Positions 40,890 through 49,256 of a stretch of DNA of 64,000 bases are shown here, piece after piece (the stretch's first letter is position 1; each line of letters starts with the position of its first letter). Origin of the DNA: an uncultured Aquimarina sp. (GTDB lineage Bacteria; Bacteroidota; Bacteroidia; Flavobacteriales; Flavobacteriaceae); assembly GCF_947492965.1 (NCBI RefSeq), contig NZ_CANLOZ010000003.1, positions 372,001 through 436,000 on the forward strand. Direction: 5' to 3'. The translations under genes were made by a program, and so were the position numbers. The notes under the pieces are model-generated. The model saw nothing but the letters and a program-made list of their open reading frames with translations. It did no database searches and had not been told where the DNA came from.

Positions 40890-43388
40890 ATGGCTAAGAA
40901 TTTAGTGATTGTAGAGTCACCAGCTAAGGCAAAGACAATAGAGAAATTTCTTGGAAAAGATTATACCGTAGCTTCGAGCTTTGGGCATATTGCGGACTTG
41001 CCAGCAAAAGAACTAGGAGTAGATGTAGAGGAAGGTTTTAAGCCGAAATATATCGTTTCTAAGGATAAGAAAGATGTAGTGAAAAAATTAAAGGATCTTT
41101 CTAAAAAAGCAGAAATGGTTTGGCTGGCTAGTGATGAGGATCGAGAAGGAGAGGCAATCGCTTGGCATTTGGCAGAGGAATTAAAATTAGATAAAAAGAG
41201 GACCCGTAGAATTGTTTTTCATGAGATCACCAAAAAGGCGATTCTAAAAGCAATAGAAAATCCTAGGACTATTGATTATAATCTAGTAAACGCGCAACAA
41301 GCTCGAAGAGTGTTAGATAGGTTGGTGGGTTACGAGTTATCTCCAGTTTTATGGAGAAAAGTAAAAGGAGGGTTGTCTGCTGGTAGAGTTCAGTCCGTTT
41401 CAGTGCGGTTAATTGTAGAAAGAGAACGTGAGATATTAGATTTTAAACCTACTCCTTCTTATCGCATTGATGCAGAATTTTCTAATGAGAAAGGGAAATC
41501 TTTTAAAGCAAAGCTTCCTAAGAATTTCGCAACAAAAGCTGAAGCTGAGGCTTTCTTACAGAAAAATTTAGGTGCTGGATTTAAGGTGGCGGATTTAACT
41601 ACAAAACCAGCTAAAAAATCTCCTGCACCACCATTCACCACTTCTACATTACAACAAGAGGCTTCCAGGAAATTGTATTTTTCTGTAAGCAAGACCATGA
41701 CCATGGCACAGCGATTATACGAAGCTGGACTTATTACTTATATGAGAACAGATAGTGTAAACTTGTCGACTGAAGCTCAGAATAGTGCTAAAGCAGAAAT
41801 AGTTTCGGCTTATGGAGATGAATATAGTAATCCAAAACAATATAAAGGAAAGTCTAAAGGTGCTCAGGAAGCTCACGAAGCGATAAGACCTACGGACTTT
41901 TCTAGACATACTGTTCCTGTTGATTCTGATCAACAACGATTATATGAGCTTATTTGGAAAAGAGCAATAGCTTCGCAAATGAGTGATGCGAAACTAGAGC
42001 GAACAAATGTGAAAATTGGGACGAACTCTCATTCAGAACAATTTACTGCTAATGGAGAAGTAATAAAATTTGAAGGCTTTCTAAAAGTGTATTTGGAAGG
42101 TAATGATGATGAGGATGAAGAGCAAAGCGGAATTCTTCCTGCAATGAAAGTAGGAGAGAGTCTTTTTAATAATTACATCACAGCTACTGAAAGATTTACA
42201 AGACCACCAAGTAGATATTCTGAAGCTGCTTTAGTTAAAAAACTAGAGGAGTTAGGGATTGGTCGTCCATCTACATATGCGCCTACAATTTCTACAATAC
42301 AGAATAGGAAGTATATAGAAAAAGGTTCTAAGGATGGAGAAGAGAGAGGGTATATACAGATTACGCTTTCTGGTGATTCTATAAAAGAAAAAAATCTTAA
42401 GGAAAAAGTAGGAAGTGATAAAGGAAAATTAATTCCTACCGATGTTGGGATGGTAGTGAATGACTTTTTGGTAAATCATTTCTCTTCTATCTTAGATTAT
42501 AATTTTACAGCAAAAGTAGAACAAGACTTCGATGAAATTGCCGAAGGTCAGGAAGATTGGACTCAAGTAATGAAAGAGTTTTATGAAGAGTTTCATCCTA
42601 GAGTAGAAGATGTTGCACAAAATGCAGAGCGTGAAGTAGGAGAAAGAATTCTTGGAGAGGACCCTGAATCTGGAAAACCGGTAAGTGTTCGCCTTGGAAA
42701 ATTTGGGCCTATGGTTCAGATTGGTACTGCTGAAGATGAAGAAAAACCAAGGTTTGCAAGTTTAGCACCTGGACAAACATTAAGTAATATAACTTTTGAA
42801 GAGGCAATGGATTTATTTCAGTTGCCAAAAGAATTAGGTAATTATAAAGGAGAAGCAGTAAGTGTGAATAATGGACGTTTTGGACCGTATGTAAAATTTG
42901 GAGCCAAATTCGTTTCTTTGGATAAAGGAGAAGATCCATTAAGTACATCTTTAGAAAGAGCAATCGAATTGATAGATGCTAAAGAAAAAGCAGATGCTCC
43001 AATATATACATATGAAAATTTACCTGTGCAAAAAGGAACAGGTAGATTCGGACCATTCATAAAATGGAATGGGATGTTTATCAATGTAAATAAAAAGTAC
43101 GATTTCGATAATCTTTCTGATCAAGATATCATTCAGCTTATAGAAGAGAAAAAGCAGAAAGAGATTGATAAGGTAATCCATAATTGGGAAGAAGAAGGTA
43201 TTCGAGTTGAAAAAGCAAGATGGGGTCGAAGTAATATTATAAAGGGTAAGACTAAGATTGAATTACCTAAAACGGTAGATGCTACCAAGCTTACTTTAGA
43301 AAAGGTGAAAGATCTTATCGAGAAAAATGCGCCCAAGAAAAAGACTGCTAAAAAGAAAACAACAAAGAAGACTGCTAAAAAGAAATAA
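40890..43388 (+). CDS. topA: DNA topoisomerase I
   Basis: An 832-residue type IA topoisomerase. It has an N-terminal Toprim domain (NLVIVESPAKAKTIEKFLG...WLASDEDREGEAIAWHLAEEL), the catalytic Tyr in GLITYMRTDS near residue 290, and C-terminal Topo-C repeats (SVRLGKFGPMVQIG, SVNNGRFGPYVKFG, GTGRFGPFIKW). The end is a lysine-rich tail (APKKKTAKKKTTKKTAKKK) that likely contacts DNA. It relaxes negative supercoils. The arginase-fold gene starts only 8 bp after it, so the two are co-transcribed. Confidence 0.98.
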   Translation: MAKNLVIVESPAKAKTIEKFLGKDYTVASSFGHIADLPAKELGVDVEEGFKPKYIVSKDKKDVVKKLKDLSKKAEMVWLASDEDREGEAIAWHLAEELKLDKKRTRRIVFHEITKKAILKAIENPRTIDYNLVNAQQARRVLDRLVGYELSPVLWRKVKGGLSAGRVQSVSVRLIVEREREILDFKPTPSYRIDAEFSNEKGKSFKAKLPKNFATKAEAEAFLQKNLGAGFKVADLTTKPAKKSPAPPFTTSTLQQEASRKLYFSVSKTMTMAQRLYEAGLITYMRTDSVNLSTEAQNSAKAEIVSAYGDEYSNPKQYKGKSKGAQEAHEAIRPTDFSRHTVPVDSDQQRLYELIWKRAIASQMSDAKLERTNVKIGTNSHSEQFTANGEVIKFEGFLKVYLEGNDDEDEEQSGILPAMKVGESLFNNYITATERFTRPPSRYSEAALVKKLEELGIGRPSTYAPTISTIQNRKYIEKGSKDGEERGYIQITLSGDSIKEKNLKEKVGSDKGKLIPTDVGMVVNDFLVNHFSSILDYNFTAKVEQDFDEIAEGQEDWTQVMKEFYEEFHPRVEDVAQNAEREVGERILGEDPESGKPVSVRLGKFGPMVQIGTAEDEEKPRFASLAPGQTLSNITFEEAMDLFQLPKELGNYKGEAVSVNNGRFGPYVKFGAKFVSLDKGEDPLSTSLERAIELIDAKEKADAPIYTYENLPVQKGTGRFGPFIKWNGMFINVNKKYDFDNLSDQDIIQLIEEKKQKEIDKVIHNWEEEGIRVEKARWGRSNIIKGKTKIELPKTVDATKLTLEKVKDLIEKNAPKKKTAKKKTTKKTAKKK

Positions 43389-43396
43389 TAAATTTT

Positions 43397-44560
43397 ATGT
43401 CCTTAGAATTTCTTTCGCCAGTTAGTGAAATAGTGGCAGCACATGTTGCATTGCTTCCAGATCAATCTTTAGGTAAGCAAATTAATATTCATACGATAGC
43501 AGATGGTGTTCCTGATCTAGATAAAGTTGATATTGCAATAATAGGTGTCAGAGAAAATAGAAATGACATTAATTATCTAGGAGAAGGATTGCATTTTGAT
43601 ACCATTAGAACTTCTTTGTATGAGCTTTTTCCTGGTAATTGGGATACATCTATTGTTGATCTTGGGGATATTCAGCCAGGAGAGGAGGTAAGTGACACGT
43701 ATTTTTTAATGAAGGATATTCTTGGAATGCTTCTTCAGAAAAATGTAATCCCCTTAATTATTGGTGGAAGTCAAGATCTTGTTTATGGTCAATATAGATC
43801 TTTTGATATCCTGGAGAGAATGGTGAACCTTGTGAATGTCGATAGTAGATTTGATTTAGGAAATACTTCGCAACCCATAAAAAACAATTCTTTTGTTGGA
43901 AAAATCATAGTAGAACAACCTTATAATCTTTTTAATTACAGTAATATAGGATATCAGACATATTTTAATTCGCAAGAAGAGATTGATCTGATAGAAAAAC
44001 TATATTTTGATGCATATCGATTAGGAGAGGTGATATCTGATGTTACGATTGTGGAACCAATCATGAGAGACGCGGATATTGTTGCTGTGGATCTTGGGGC
44101 AATGAGTTCTACATGTTTGGATTATAAATACGCTTCTCCAAATGGTTTTAATGGAAGAGAAATATGTGCAATCGCAAGATATGCTGGTATCAGTGATAAG
44201 GTGAAAAGTTTTGGAGTGTATGAATTTAAAAATTTTAAGCATGAAGAGACTGCAGCTTTACTAATTGCTCAAATACTTTGGTATTTTATAGAAGGGGTGA
44301 ATTATAGGTCCAATGAATTGAATATTAAGAATAAAACAAGTACGTTACATTATAATGTTCCTGTCGAGGATGAAGTTTTGTCGTTTTATAAAAGCCCAAA
44401 AACAGAAAGATGGTGGATAGAAATACCATTTATTTCATCTGGGAATAATAAATTAAAAAGACATACGTTATTACCTTGCACATACAACGATTATGAGCGT
44501 GCTTGTAATCAAGAAATACCTGAAAGATGGTATAAGGCAAAACGAAAAAACGAAGTTTAA
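43397..44560 (+). CDS. Arginase/formimidoylglutamase-fold protein with degraded metal sites
   Basis: A 387-residue ureohydrolase-fold protein. The family strands are recognisable (VDIAIIGVRENRNDI, VIPLIIGGSQDL, LVNVDSRFD, IVAVDLGAMSSTC). The manganese ligands are not kept: GGxH is GGSQD (Q126), DxHxD is DSRFD (R151 for His), and SxDxD is VDLGA (G234 for Asp). Three of six ligands are therefore lost, and classical arginase or formimidoylglutamase activity is unlikely. It lies between topA and gldK, a placement I recall from other flavobacteria, which suggests a non-enzymatic role perhaps tied to the gliding/T9SS genes. Confidence 0.8.
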   Translation: MSLEFLSPVSEIVAAHVALLPDQSLGKQINIHTIADGVPDLDKVDIAIIGVRENRNDINYLGEGLHFDTIRTSLYELFPGNWDTSIVDLGDIQPGEEVSDTYFLMKDILGMLLQKNVIPLIIGGSQDLVYGQYRSFDILERMVNLVNVDSRFDLGNTSQPIKNNSFVGKIIVEQPYNLFNYSNIGYQTYFNSQEEIDLIEKLYFDAYRLGEVISDVTIVEPIMRDADIVAVDLGAMSSTCLDYKYASPNGFNGREICAIARYAGISDKVKSFGVYEFKNFKHEETAALLIAQILWYFIEGVNYRSNELNIKNKTSTLHYNVPVEDEVLSFYKSPKTERWWIEIPFISSGNNKLKRHTLLPCTYNDYERACNQEIPERWYKAKRKNEV

Positions 44561-44670
44561 CATTTTTATTAGGGAGAATTAAGGTTTTTTTTAGAAAAAA
44601 ATTGTTTTTCTGAAAATAAATAAATAGGTTTACCACCTTAAATCTCGAAGATCTTAACCTAAAACACGTT

Positions 44671-46038
44671 ATGAAGAAATTTGTATCACTCTTTGCTATT
44701 GTAGCAATGCTATATAGTTGTGGTGGCGGAAACCGCGGAGAACTAGTTGGAGTAAAGGGTAAAAAATGGCATCCAGAGAAACCTTATGGAATGGCCCTCA
44801 TCCCCGGAGGATCGTTTATTATGGGTAAATCAGACGATGATAAGGCAGCACTTGCTAATGCGCCTACAAAAACAGTTACCGTTCGATCTTTCTACATGGA
44901 CGAGACTGAAGTTACCAATAGTGAGTATAGACAATTCGTTCGATGGGTTCGTGATTCTACCGTAAGAATGAAATTAGCTATCATGGCAGATGAAATGGGT
45001 AAAACTCCAGGAGACGATGGTATTGGAGAATACGCGTTTTTAGATGCAAATACCGAAGACATGTCTGTGTATGAAAAGTATGTTTATGATAACTATAGTG
45101 GAACTGGAGAAACAGGATACGAAGGTCGTAAGCTTAATAAAGATATAGATATTGAATGGGATACAGAAGATTATCCAGATGAGTTCTATACTGAGGTTAT
45201 GGATTCATTATATATACCATTAGAGGAATCTTACAATGGTAGACGTACTTTCGATGTTCAAAACTTCAAATTCAGGTTTACTTGGATGGATATCCAAGCT
45301 GCAGCACGCGCTAAAAAAGGTAGAAGAAAAGATTTCGTAAAAGAAACTGTTATAGAAGTATATCCTGATACTACAGTTTGGATAAAAGATTTTAACTATT
45401 CTTATAATGAACCAATGCACAATGATTATTTCTGGCATAGCTCTTATGATGATTATCCGGTAGTAGGAGTTTCTTGGGAGCAAGCAAAAGCTTTTTGTAC
45501 TTGGAGAACTATAGAAAAGAATTCATATCAGAAAAAACGTAATAAGGAGTTTGTAAACTATTTTAGATTACCTACGGAGGCTGAATGGGAATATGCGGCT
45601 AGAGGTGGTCTGGAGTCAGGTACATATCCTTGGGGTGGTCCTTATGCCCTAAATGATAGAGGATGTTTCTTAGCGAACTTTAAACCTCTTAGAGGTAATT
45701 ACGCTGCAGATAATTTCCTTTATACAGTAGAAGCAAAAACATTTGAGCCAAATGATTACAACTTATATAATATGGCAGGAAATGTTTCTGAGTGGGTGCA
45801 GTCATCTTATGATCCTGCAGCCTACGAATATGTATCATCAATGAACCCAAATGTTAATGATGATCAGAACAAACGAAAAGTTGTACGCGGTGGATCTTGG
45901 AAAGATGTTGCTTATTTCCTACAGGTAAGTACTCGAGATTACGAATACGCGGATTCAGCTAGAAGTTATATCGGTTTCAGAACGGTACAGGATTATATGG
46001 GTACTGACGTTACTGGAGAAGATAATACCCGAAATTAG
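44671..46038 (+). CDS. gldK: Gliding-motility/T9SS lipoprotein GldK
   Basis: A 455-residue lipoprotein (lipobox LYSC, Cys17) with a formylglycine-generating-enzyme-like (SUMF1) fold. It has MALIPGGSFIMGKSDDD, RLPTEAEWEYAARGG, YNMAGNVSEWVQSS and VVRGGSWKD. GldK forms, with GldN, the periplasmic ring under the outer membrane of the type IX secretion system; it is not an active sulfatase modifier. The order gldK-gldL-gldM-gldN is complete here. The 110-bp gap after the arginase-fold gene contains a weak promoter-like TAGGTTTA. Confidence 0.96.
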   Translation: MKKFVSLFAIVAMLYSCGGGNRGELVGVKGKKWHPEKPYGMALIPGGSFIMGKSDDDKAALANAPTKTVTVRSFYMDETEVTNSEYRQFVRWVRDSTVRMKLAIMADEMGKTPGDDGIGEYAFLDANTEDMSVYEKYVYDNYSGTGETGYEGRKLNKDIDIEWDTEDYPDEFYTEVMDSLYIPLEESYNGRRTFDVQNFKFRFTWMDIQAAARAKKGRRKDFVKETVIEVYPDTTVWIKDFNYSYNEPMHNDYFWHSSYDDYPVVGVSWEQAKAFCTWRTIEKNSYQKKRNKEFVNYFRLPTEAEWEYAARGGLESGTYPWGGPYALNDRGCFLANFKPLRGNYAADNFLYTVEAKTFEPNDYNLYNMAGNVSEWVQSSYDPAAYEYVSSMNPNVNDDQNKRKVVRGGSWKDVAYFLQVSTRDYEYADSARSYIGFRTVQDYMGTDVTGEDNTRN

Positions 46039-46131: not shown

Positions 46132-46758
46132 ATGGCAAATTCAAAATCAAGCAAGAAGTTAATGAACATGGTATACGGTCTCGGAGCGGCTGTAGTAATC
46201 CTTGGAGCTTTATTTAAAATTATGCACTGGCCTTTTGGTAACGAGATGTTAATCATCGGTCTTATTACAGAAGCATTAGTATTTACAGTTTCTGCATTTG
46301 AACCTGTAGATGACGAGCTAGATTGGTCTTTGGTTTATCCAGAATTAGCTGGTGGATCTAAAAGAGACAAGAAAGAAAAAGAAACTCCAGAAGGATTATT
46401 ATCTAAGAAATTAGATGAAATGTTGAAAGAAGCTAGATTAGATACTAGTTTAATGACTAGTCTTGGTGAAAGTATTCGTAATTTCGAAGGTGCTGCAAAA
46501 GGAATTGCTCCTAGCGTAGATGCTATCCAAGGAACTAAAAAATATAGCGAAGAAATGGCTGCTGCTGCTACTCACTTAGAGTCTTTAAATAGCTTATATA
46601 AAGTGCAGTTAGAATCTTCTGCTAAACAAGCTGAAGCAAATCAGGCTATCGCGGATAATGCAAAAGCTTTAGAAGAGCAAATGAAGAGCTTGTCAAGTAA
46701 CCTGTCTTCTCTTAACGGAGTATATGGTGGTATGTTAAGTGCTATGAACAGAAGCTAG
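46132..46758 (+). CDS. gldL: T9SS/gliding motor protein GldL
   Basis: A 208-residue inner-membrane protein with two N-terminal helices (MNMVYGLGAAVVILGALFKIMHWPFGNEMLIIGLITEALVFTVSAFEP) and a cytoplasmic coiled-coil tail. The Lys-Ile-Met-His-Trp-Pro-Phe-Gly stretch and the Glu in helix 2 (TEALVF) are hallmark residues of the proton-driven GldL motor. GldL pentamers surround a GldM dimer and convert proton flow into rotation that powers secretion and gliding. Confidence 0.96.
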   Translation: MANSKSSKKLMNMVYGLGAAVVILGALFKIMHWPFGNEMLIIGLITEALVFTVSAFEPVDDELDWSLVYPELAGGSKRDKKEKETPEGLLSKKLDEMLKEARLDTSLMTSLGESIRNFEGAAKGIAPSVDAIQGTKKYSEEMAAAATHLESLNSLYKVQLESSAKQAEANQAIADNAKALEEQMKSLSSNLSSLNGVYGGMLSAMNRS

Positions 46759-46801: not shown

Positions 46802-48349
46802 ATGGCAGGAGGAAAATTATCACCAAGGCAGAAGATGATTAATCTTATGTACTTGGTATTTATTGCGATGATGGCATTGAATATGTCAAAAGAAGTATTA
46901 TCTGCATTCGGTTTAATGAATGAGAAATTGACTTCAGCGAATACTATTGCTACCGAGCGTAATTCAGCATTTATGACTGGTCTAGCCGAAAAAGTTTCGG
47001 AACAACCAGAGAAATACACTCCATTAAAAGAAAAAGCTGATCAAATTAGTAGCTTTTCTAATGAATTTAATACGTATGTAGAACAGTTAAAGTCTGAGTT
47101 ATTGGAGACAGCTGATGATCCAACAGATTATGAAACCATGGATAAGCCAGATGCATTAGATACTAAATTCTTTGAAGGAGGTAAAACTACTGCGGCTGCA
47201 ACAGAGTTCTTAGAAAAGATTAAAACTTATAGAGAAGGAGTTGTTACTGCTATCCGTTCTGTAAAGGAAGTTGATGGTCAGGTAGCTACAGATGTAGAGA
47301 CTACTTTTAATACTGAAAAAGTAAAAGATAGAGATGGAGTTTCTAAAGATTGGTTAAACTACAATTTTGAAGGATTTCCTTTAGTAGCTTCTATCACTAA
47401 GCTTACACAGATGCAAGCAGATGTTAAGACTACTGAGAGTAAAGTGCTTTCTGCTTTATTAGCAGGTCAGCAAGCTTCAGAACTTTCATTTAGTAACTAT
47501 GAGGCAATTGTTGTACCAGATAAGACTGCTTTTTTTAGTGGTGAGAAATTTAAAGGACGTATCGTTTTAGGGCGTTTTGATGCTACATTAAAGCCTACTA
47601 AAGTAATGGTTAACGGAAAAGAGCAGTCAGAAGTTCAAAATGGACAGATAATGCTTGATTTTCCAGCTGGAAACGTAGGAGAAAGAGAAGTAAAAGGTGA
47701 ATTACAATTTAAAGAAGGAGATTCAACAGTAACTATTCCTATAAAAAGTTCTTATGCTGTAATTCCTAAGCCAAATTCAGCTGTAATTTCTGCAGATAAA
47801 ATGAATGTGGTATATAGAGGAGTGCAAAACCCAATGACAATTTCTATCCCAGGAGTACCTTCAGTCAATGCTACTGCACCAGGACTTAAGAAAGTTGGTG
47901 GAGCTGGTAAGTATGTAATGAACGTTACAGCGATAAAAGCTAGAGAAGTGGCTATTAAAGTAAGCGGAAAATTACCAAATGGTAGTTCTGTAAGTGATAG
48001 CAAGAAATTTAGAATTAAAGATATTCCAAGACCTGTTGGAACTGTAAGAGGAGAAGACGGAAGTATCAAAATGTCTAAAAGTGGTTTAGATAAAGCATCT
48101 ATTGGTGCGATTCTTCCAGACTTTGATTTCGACATTAAGTTAGATGTTACAAGCTTTAAGTTTAAAGTAAGTGGACAACCAACGATTAATGTAAGAGGTC
48201 GTAGATTAGATTCTAGAGCAAAATCAGCATTGAAAAAGGCGAAAAGAGGATCTACAGTTCAGGTAATGGATATCAAAGCTCAGCTTAAAACGAATAAAGG
48301 ATATAAGTTAAAGAAAATATCTCCAGTGATCGTTGAGCTAACGAACTAA
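46802..48349 (+). CDS. gldM: T9SS/gliding motor shaft protein GldM
   Basis: A 515-residue protein beginning MAGGKLSPRQKMINLMYLVFIAMMALNMSKEVLSAFGLMNEKL, the conserved N-terminal helix that is held in the GldL ring. A long periplasmic part made of successive beta domains follows (IVVPDKTAFFSGEKFKGRIVLGRFD... onward). GldM transmits torque from the inner membrane to the GldK/GldN ring. It starts 43 bp after gldL. Confidence 0.97.
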   Translation: MAGGKLSPRQKMINLMYLVFIAMMALNMSKEVLSAFGLMNEKLTSANTIATERNSAFMTGLAEKVSEQPEKYTPLKEKADQISSFSNEFNTYVEQLKSELLETADDPTDYETMDKPDALDTKFFEGGKTTAAATEFLEKIKTYREGVVTAIRSVKEVDGQVATDVETTFNTEKVKDRDGVSKDWLNYNFEGFPLVASITKLTQMQADVKTTESKVLSALLAGQQASELSFSNYEAIVVPDKTAFFSGEKFKGRIVLGRFDATLKPTKVMVNGKEQSEVQNGQIMLDFPAGNVGEREVKGELQFKEGDSTVTIPIKSSYAVIPKPNSAVISADKMNVVYRGVQNPMTISIPGVPSVNATAPGLKKVGGAGKYVMNVTAIKAREVAIKVSGKLPNGSSVSDSKKFRIKDIPRPVGTVRGEDGSIKMSKSGLDKASIGAILPDFDFDIKLDVTSFKFKVSGQPTINVRGRRLDSRAKSALKKAKRGSTVQVMDIKAQLKTNKGYKLKKISPVIVELTN

Positions 48350-48365
48350 AAGTAAACTAATAATT

Positions 48366-49256
48366 ATGAATTTGAAAAATTTATTATTAACCGTTTTTAG
48401 CCTATTCGTGACAATGTTCTCGTTTGGTCAGGCTAACATTTTGAATGCTGGAAGCCCAGAAGATATTGGGAAGAAGACAATCGAACAAATTCAGTTAGAT
48501 AATGACCTTCCGTTAGAGTATGGTTATGTTGATGAGCGTGATGTATTGTGGGCAAAGACTACTTGGGAGACTATAGACTTAGACGAGCGTATTAATTTCC
48601 CTTTGTATTACCCAATTGATACCGTTAACATTGGTTCTGATAGAAGAGCATTATACGATATCTTATTAGCTAATGTTAAAAACGGGAAAATTAAAAAGAT
48701 TTACGCAGATTCATATTTTACAGAAACACGTACGCTAAGTGATTTAGATGGTACATTATCTAAAATAGATACGTTAGATTTAGGATATGAGCAGTATAAT
48801 GCAGGTGAGCCGGTAGATCCTCAGTATATTGAGACAACTACAATTGGTGCTGCGGATATATCAGAGTATAAAATTAGAGGATATTGGTATTTTGACAAGC
48901 GTCAAGGAGAATTAAGATATCGACTATTAGGTATCGCCCCAGTAGCTCCGGATGTTAACTTCCTTAATGATGATGAGCCAGATATGGTTCCATTATTTTG
49001 GGTGTGGTATCCTGATGTAAGAGAGATTTTACATAAAGCGAAAGCATTTAATAGGAAAAATACTTCTATGCCTTTTACTTATGATCATATTTTAAATGCA
49101 AGACGATTTAGTTCGGTCATATATAAAGAAGATAATATTCAGGGTGACCGAGAGGTGAATGAATATATTATAGACAATGCTTTAATGCAGTTGTTAGAAA
49201 GTGAACGAATTAAAGAAAGTATCAGAAATTTCGAAATGGATATGTGGAGTTATTAA
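48366..49256 (+). CDS. gldN: T9SS/gliding periplasmic protein GldN
   Basis: A 296-residue secreted protein with a signal peptide ending SFGQA. Conserved stretches are VLWAKTTWETIDLDERINFPLYYPID, IRGYWYFDKRQGELRYRLLGIAPVAPDV, and PLFWVWYPDVREILHKAKAFN. It joins GldK in the periplasmic ring of the type IX secretion system. It is 16 bp after gldM and is followed by a strong terminator, closing the gld operon. No gldO paralogue follows. Confidence 0.96.
   Translation: MNLKNLLLTVFSLFVTMFSFGQANILNAGSPEDIGKKTIEQIQLDNDLPLEYGYVDERDVLWAKTTWETIDLDERINFPLYYPIDTVNIGSDRRALYDILLANVKNGKIKKIYADSYFTETRTLSDLDGTLSKIDTLDLGYEQYNAGEPVDPQYIETTTIGAADISEYKIRGYWYFDKRQGELRYRLLGIAPVAPDVNFLNDDEPDMVPLFWVWYPDVREILHKAKAFNRKNTSMPFTYDHILNARRFSSVIYKEDNIQGDREVNEYIIDNALMQLLESERIKESIRNFEMDMWSY

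Follow-up and report, generated by a model that had tools for sequence, protein, structure and literature searches.

Several described proteins share the arginase fold with the gene considered here. Formimidoylglutamases of the HutG type (TIGR01227), among them the Bacillus subtilis enzyme (3m1r), are its best family match and its best structural match. An arginase-like protein of Trypanosoma brucei (4rhk, 4rhm) is described as having no metal cluster (Hai et al., 2015, as cited in a passage of PMC6988801), and MetCb, a pseudo-subunit of metformin hydrolase, is a metal-free binder of the arginase family that is paired with the active MetCa (PMC11271267). Here we analyze a gene, designated PSA for pseudo-arginase, in a 64,000-nucleotide window from an uncultured Aquimarina sp. 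(assembly GCF_947492965.1, contig NZ_CANLOZ010000003.1, positions 372,001 to 436,000). Judged by its residues and its predicted structure, PSA matches the non-catalytic kind represented by the trypanosome protein and MetCb, in which the fold is kept, the binuclear center is lost and the gene is conserved. It differs from HutG in its low score on the family model, the loss of three of six metal ligands and an additional C-terminal domain. In PSA, as in the T. brucei protein, an Arg stands where a ligand His would be (R151H in the title of 4rhm), but the trypanosome protein is eukaryotic, is only 12% identical in the structural match and lacks Asp ligands as well (S149D, S153D and S226D in the same title). 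With MetCb it would share the retention of a metal-free protein of the arginase family as a binder; however, MetCb acts together with the active MetCa, whereas PSA can be the sole arginase-family protein of a genome. We consider it likely that PSA represents an ancient, vertically inherited and neofunctionalised family of non-hydrolytic arginase-fold proteins of the Bacteroidia.

The gene and the parts of it on which this reading draws are as follows.

43397..44560, forward strand: the pseudo-arginase gene (PSA), 387 amino acids (open reading frame call, Pfam, AlphaFold, Foldseek)
43517..44296, forward strand: arginase-fold domain, about residues 41-300 (Pfam/NCBIfam match 41-298; AlphaFold model and Foldseek)
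43763..43777, forward strand: GGSQD, residues 123-127, with Gln126 in place of the first ligand His (sequence and alignment)
43841..43855, forward strand: DSRFD, residues 149-153, ligand His replaced by Arg151, D149 and D153 retained (sequence and alignment)
44054..44068, forward strand: EPIMR, residues 220-224, with E220 and R224 each in 240 of 241 members and not in canonical relatives (alignment)
44087..44101, forward strand: VDLGA, residues 231-235, D232 retained, second Asp replaced by Gly234 (sequence and alignment)
44309..44557, forward strand: C-terminal domain of four strands and two helices, spanning about residues 305-387 (prediction, family alignment)

When aligned with intact paralogues, the canonical ligand set HDHDDD reads Q-D-R-D-D-G in PSA, so that exactly three of the six ligands are replaced, namely the two ligand His residues and one of the Asp ligands. 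A first-pass annotation of the window had reported these three replacements from the motifs, which can be read directly in the sequence, and the alignment agrees. The same genome encodes three other PF00491 proteins; of these, L001 and L002, the two read in the alignment, keep all six ligands. Among 237 members of the PSA family, three ligands are kept in 188, four in 26 and fewer in 23; no member has five or six. The residue at position 126 is usually Q (190 members), with H in 24 and N in 12. At position 151, K or R is found in 149 members and H in only 5, the rest having almost any residue, and at position 234, where D occurs in only 7, the residue is mostly S, G, N, T or K. Of the 23 canonical relatives included in this alignment, 20 have HDHDDD, and the other three keep five ligands, with Asn at one site. 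In arginases, metal B is held by the second His together with the final Asp, so that site B is gone throughout the PSA family. The losses are thus common to the family, and orthologues with intact motifs, which the first-pass annotation had named as evidence that would count against a pseudoenzyme, are absent among the 237. By this sequence measure PSA is a conserved pseudoenzyme candidate well beyond one Aquimarina genome, and the earlier call holds across the class. In one family of divergent loci (f2, L153-L157), which lie near topA without gldKLMN, PSA is about 28% identical and ligand Asp residues are also gone (QISNIIS, VNCDA).

The fold itself can be recognized both in the sequence and in a predicted model. 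PF00491 (Arginase) matches residues 67-296 with an E-value of 1.1e-7 and 32 bits against a Pfam cut-off of 22. The hutG model TIGR01227 gives 46.9 bits, far under its NCBIfam equivalog cut-off of 229.15, which bears out the earlier doubt about a formimidoylglutamase identity; both the six-ligand center of ureohydrolases and a HutG score at equivalog level are missing. The AlphaFold model has a predicted local distance difference test score (pLDDT) of 84 and a predicted template modeling score of 0.87, and its best Foldseek match in the PDB is the B. subtilis enzyme (E 6e-14, template modeling score 0.74 on the target). The 50 top PDB matches are all ureohydrolases or arginase-like proteins; agmatinase and metformin hydrolase are among them besides formimidoylglutamase, and so is the arginase-like protein of T. 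brucei. Domain match and predicted structure together place PSA in the arginase superfamily (PF00491 fold).

All 241 members examined extend beyond the arginase fold by 50 or more C-terminal amino acids (median 83), whereas canonical relatives stop at the fold, except that L001, a poorly aligned row, has a short stretch there. Modeled alone, this domain of PSA has a pLDDT of 79 and contains four strands and two helices. It had no significant match in a Pfam search or, with Foldseek, in the PDB (best E 0.49); weak resemblances, such as to the PARP2 WGR domain, have E-values above 2. W295, W339 and G250 are present in all 241 members, and E220, R224 and C361 in 240. Invariant or near-invariant residues that are specific to the family and not found in canonical proteins comprise R208, E220, P221, R224, C257 and W295 within the fold and F330, W339, W340, C361 and Y366 in the tail. 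A dead catalytic site beside new invariant residues points to a changed function and not to a decaying gene.

The distribution and conservation of PSA point the same way. Orthologues occur in 98 of 101 Flavobacteriaceae genomes and in all 82 of the near-complete ones, with the closest named relatives in Aquimarina species (95% identity in A. litoralis). A profile search finds the family in about 94% of the genomes sampled from the class Bacteroidia (371 of 396). A single-sequence search across the phylum gave matches in 123 of 297 genomes, the weak ones being canonical paralogues. In a maximum-likelihood tree of 88 rows, a quick run made without bootstrap and with several uncertain long branches in families f5 and f76, a branch with 98% support divides the PSA family from canonical proteins; L165 groups with the latter. 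Between Aquimarina species the ratio of nonsynonymous to synonymous substitution rates (dN/dS) is 0.04-0.05, with dS near 1, a value that exceeds those of TopA and GldK and is mostly lower than that of GldM. Judged by these rates, PSA is under purifying selection. An annotation or frame error as the source of PSA is excluded by the intact reading frame, which starts with ATG and has no internal stops, and by the motifs read within it. A decayed or recently dead gene is ruled out by intact frames, the low dN/dS and family-wide conservation. Thus the earlier view of a full-length protein that is not decaying holds, with the arginase fold itself being predicted.

How might such a family have arisen? 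Early in the Bacteroidia, an arginase or HutG-type enzyme would have lost metal site B, as its ligand His gave way to Lys, Arg or some other residue and Ser, Gly or Asn took the place of the second Asp in the DxD motif. Most lineages would additionally have lost the site A His. With the acquisition of a small C-terminal domain and a new set of near-invariant residues, the protein would have become a scaffold or ligand-sensing protein, probably oligomeric and without hydrolytic activity. It would bind its partner through a reshaped pocket, the tryptophan-rich C-terminal domain or both, with no need for hydrolysis. We infer that it is cytosolic because no signal peptide is visible.

Since the first-pass annotation had tied this role to gliding or the type IX secretion system (T9SS), the neighboring genes must be considered. 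As it had noted, PSA stands between topA and the gld motor genes.

40890..43388, forward strand: topA, ending 8 bp upstream of PSA, likely on a common transcript
44602..44633, forward strand: conserved promoter-like element TTG-N20-TAGGTTTAC (aligned intergenic regions of 20 Flavobacteriaceae)
44671..46038, forward strand: gldK, encoding the T9SS ring lipoprotein (TIGR03525, 604.5 bits), 110 bp after PSA
46132..46758, forward strand: gldL (TIGR03513)
46802..48349, forward strand: gldM (TIGR03517)
48366..49256, forward strand: gldN (TIGR03523)

All four gld assignments exceed their NCBIfam cut-offs. One possibility is that PSA is a dedicated cytosolic factor of the T9SS and gliding motor, acting in assembly, regulation or energisation of GldLM. 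Across 100 loci from dozens of families, picked by family and not at random, the commonest order is topA > PSA > porP > gldK > gldL > gldM > gldN, conserved where PSA is only about 30-45% identical to the window protein; Flavobacteriaceae loci have the topA-PSA-gldK order without porP. This gene order makes a function in T9SS or gliding a good hypothesis. Co-occurrence also favors it: among the 396 class genomes, 369 have both PSA and GldL, 18 GldL only, 2 PSA only and 7 neither, where five of the PSA-negative genomes are inferred from absence among listed positives (Fisher p 6e-8, relatedness ignored). However, five of the seven double absences fall in one family (f11), so that these genomes, although they lack PSA and GldL together, lend thin independent support. 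Two genomes, 99% and 95% complete (G568 and G438), have neither GldL nor SprA and yet retain full-length PSA with the usual family motifs, so PSA is not strictly confined to T9SS genomes. Conversely, SprA is present in all those tested of the 18 genomes that have GldL without PSA. In many families PSA lies apart from gldKLMN, and gldK appears to own its promoter. PSA is thus a conserved neighbor of GldK, GldL, GldM, GldN and PorP that differs from them in having no visible signal peptide and in being kept without GldL and SprA; no homology between PSA and these components was found. The proposed tie to T9SS therefore stands as a neighborhood conserved over dozens of families and not as an obligate link. 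Support of the adjacent motor by PSA is possible, but not as its only role, and a dedicated motor factor strikes us as doubtful. A more specific version, in which an arginase that is dead as an enzyme and has acquired a C-terminal domain serves throughout the class as a cytosolic motor factor that binds a ligand or protein, such as the cytosolic face of GldL, and couples motor assembly or activity to the state of the cell, is rather unlikely.

Some further observations concern the same genomes and loci. In one genome (G440) SprA is present and GldL absent. GldB (TIGR03514) was rejected as a gliding marker, as it also matches f11 genomes without GldL. Five f11 genomes (G328, G336, G494, G671 and G683), all without GldL and SprA, have GldB-type proteins, and GldB homology is therefore no marker of gliding or T9SS. 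In family f5 (L159, L161 and L162) a very divergent PSA is accompanied by gldK-like and Mur-ligase-like genes on the opposite strand, with porP in two loci, and the GldL matches of these genomes are weak as well (E about 1e-15).

Alternatively, PSA could be a housekeeping protein of a general kind or act as a partner of topoisomerase I, with its adjacency to the gld genes being only inherited gene order. In 76 of 79 Flavobacteriaceae loci the gap between topA and PSA measures -4 to 12 nt, whereas that between PSA and gldK is 105-187 nt (about 110 bp in most, an unusually constant length) and contains the promoter-like element, which appears to be a promoter of gldK. In this family, therefore, the tightest tie of PSA is to topA, and PSA is probably made from the topA unit. 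Loci in which PSA accompanies topA without gldKLMN, in families f2 (L154, L156) and f63 (L258, L259), fit this explanation, as do the two genomes that retain PSA without GldL and SprA. However, PSA is separated from topA in many families, in some of them while still beside gldKLMN (L141, L170, L216, L232), with porP also present in L141, L216 and L232; in many others it is apart from both. We hold a topA-linked or housekeeping role as a tentative alternative.

The spacer before gldK has features of its own. The promoter consensus TAnnTTTG was not enriched between PSA and gldK (8 of the 79 Flavobacteriaceae loci against 8.7 when shuffled); TAGGTTTAC, found by alignment, is a variant of it. The conserved Flavobacteriaceae spacer (44602-44670) also contains CCTTAAATC and TTTAACCTAA downstream of TTG-N20-TAGGTTTAC, and TAGGTT and AACCTA within it could pair as an inverted repeat, as in an operator or 5′ leader.

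Could PSA still be an active hydrolase or lyase, using a mononuclear metal or other chemistry? Three points weigh against the loss of catalysis or the model on which the fold depends. D149, D153 and D232 are retained in 215-225 of 237 members (over 90%), so that one metal could still bind, and a single metal at site A may persist. A Trypanosoma cruzi formiminoglutamase apparently has Asn at the first His position (N114H variant) and is titled as Mn2-bound (4mxr, 4myn). AlphaFold worked from a shallow alignment of 42 sequences, most of them at least 60% identical, and models varied in pLDDT from 71 to 84. In addition, Q, N or H occupies position 126 in 226 of 237 members, and E276, the counterpart of an invariant canonical Glu, is retained in 174 of 241. 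However, E276 is Asn or Gly in 60 members, the canonical D at position 273 is Gly in the PSA family, and positions 151 (K, R, N, S, C, Q, A, L and others) and 234, which hold metal B in arginases, vary freely, where invariance would be expected of an active site that is still used. We regard continued catalysis as improbable. Two proteins from other classes of the phylum (L275, L280) have Asn for the first ligand His with the other five ligands intact, a pattern that apparently resembles the T. cruzi enzyme.

A role for PSA as the non-catalytic partner subunit of some active ureohydrolase is highly improbable: the common fold, the metformin hydrolase chains among the best structural matches, the precedent of MetCb (PMC11271267) and the three other PF00491 proteins in this genome speak for it, but PSA is the only PF00491 protein found in G043 and G359 (32 genomes searched), which speaks against its being an obligate helper.

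In the open-licence literature we found no paper on an arginase-like or formimidoylglutamase gene with gliding or T9SS, nor one on the PSA family. About 94% of sampled Bacteroidia genomes hold this strongly constrained protein, often beside the T9SS motor, and a described function was not found for it. As a conserved, probably non-hydrolytic arginase-fold family, PSA is one whose membership in an enzyme family points the wrong way on function, and it offers a clear case of an enzyme fold converted to something else early in a bacterial class.
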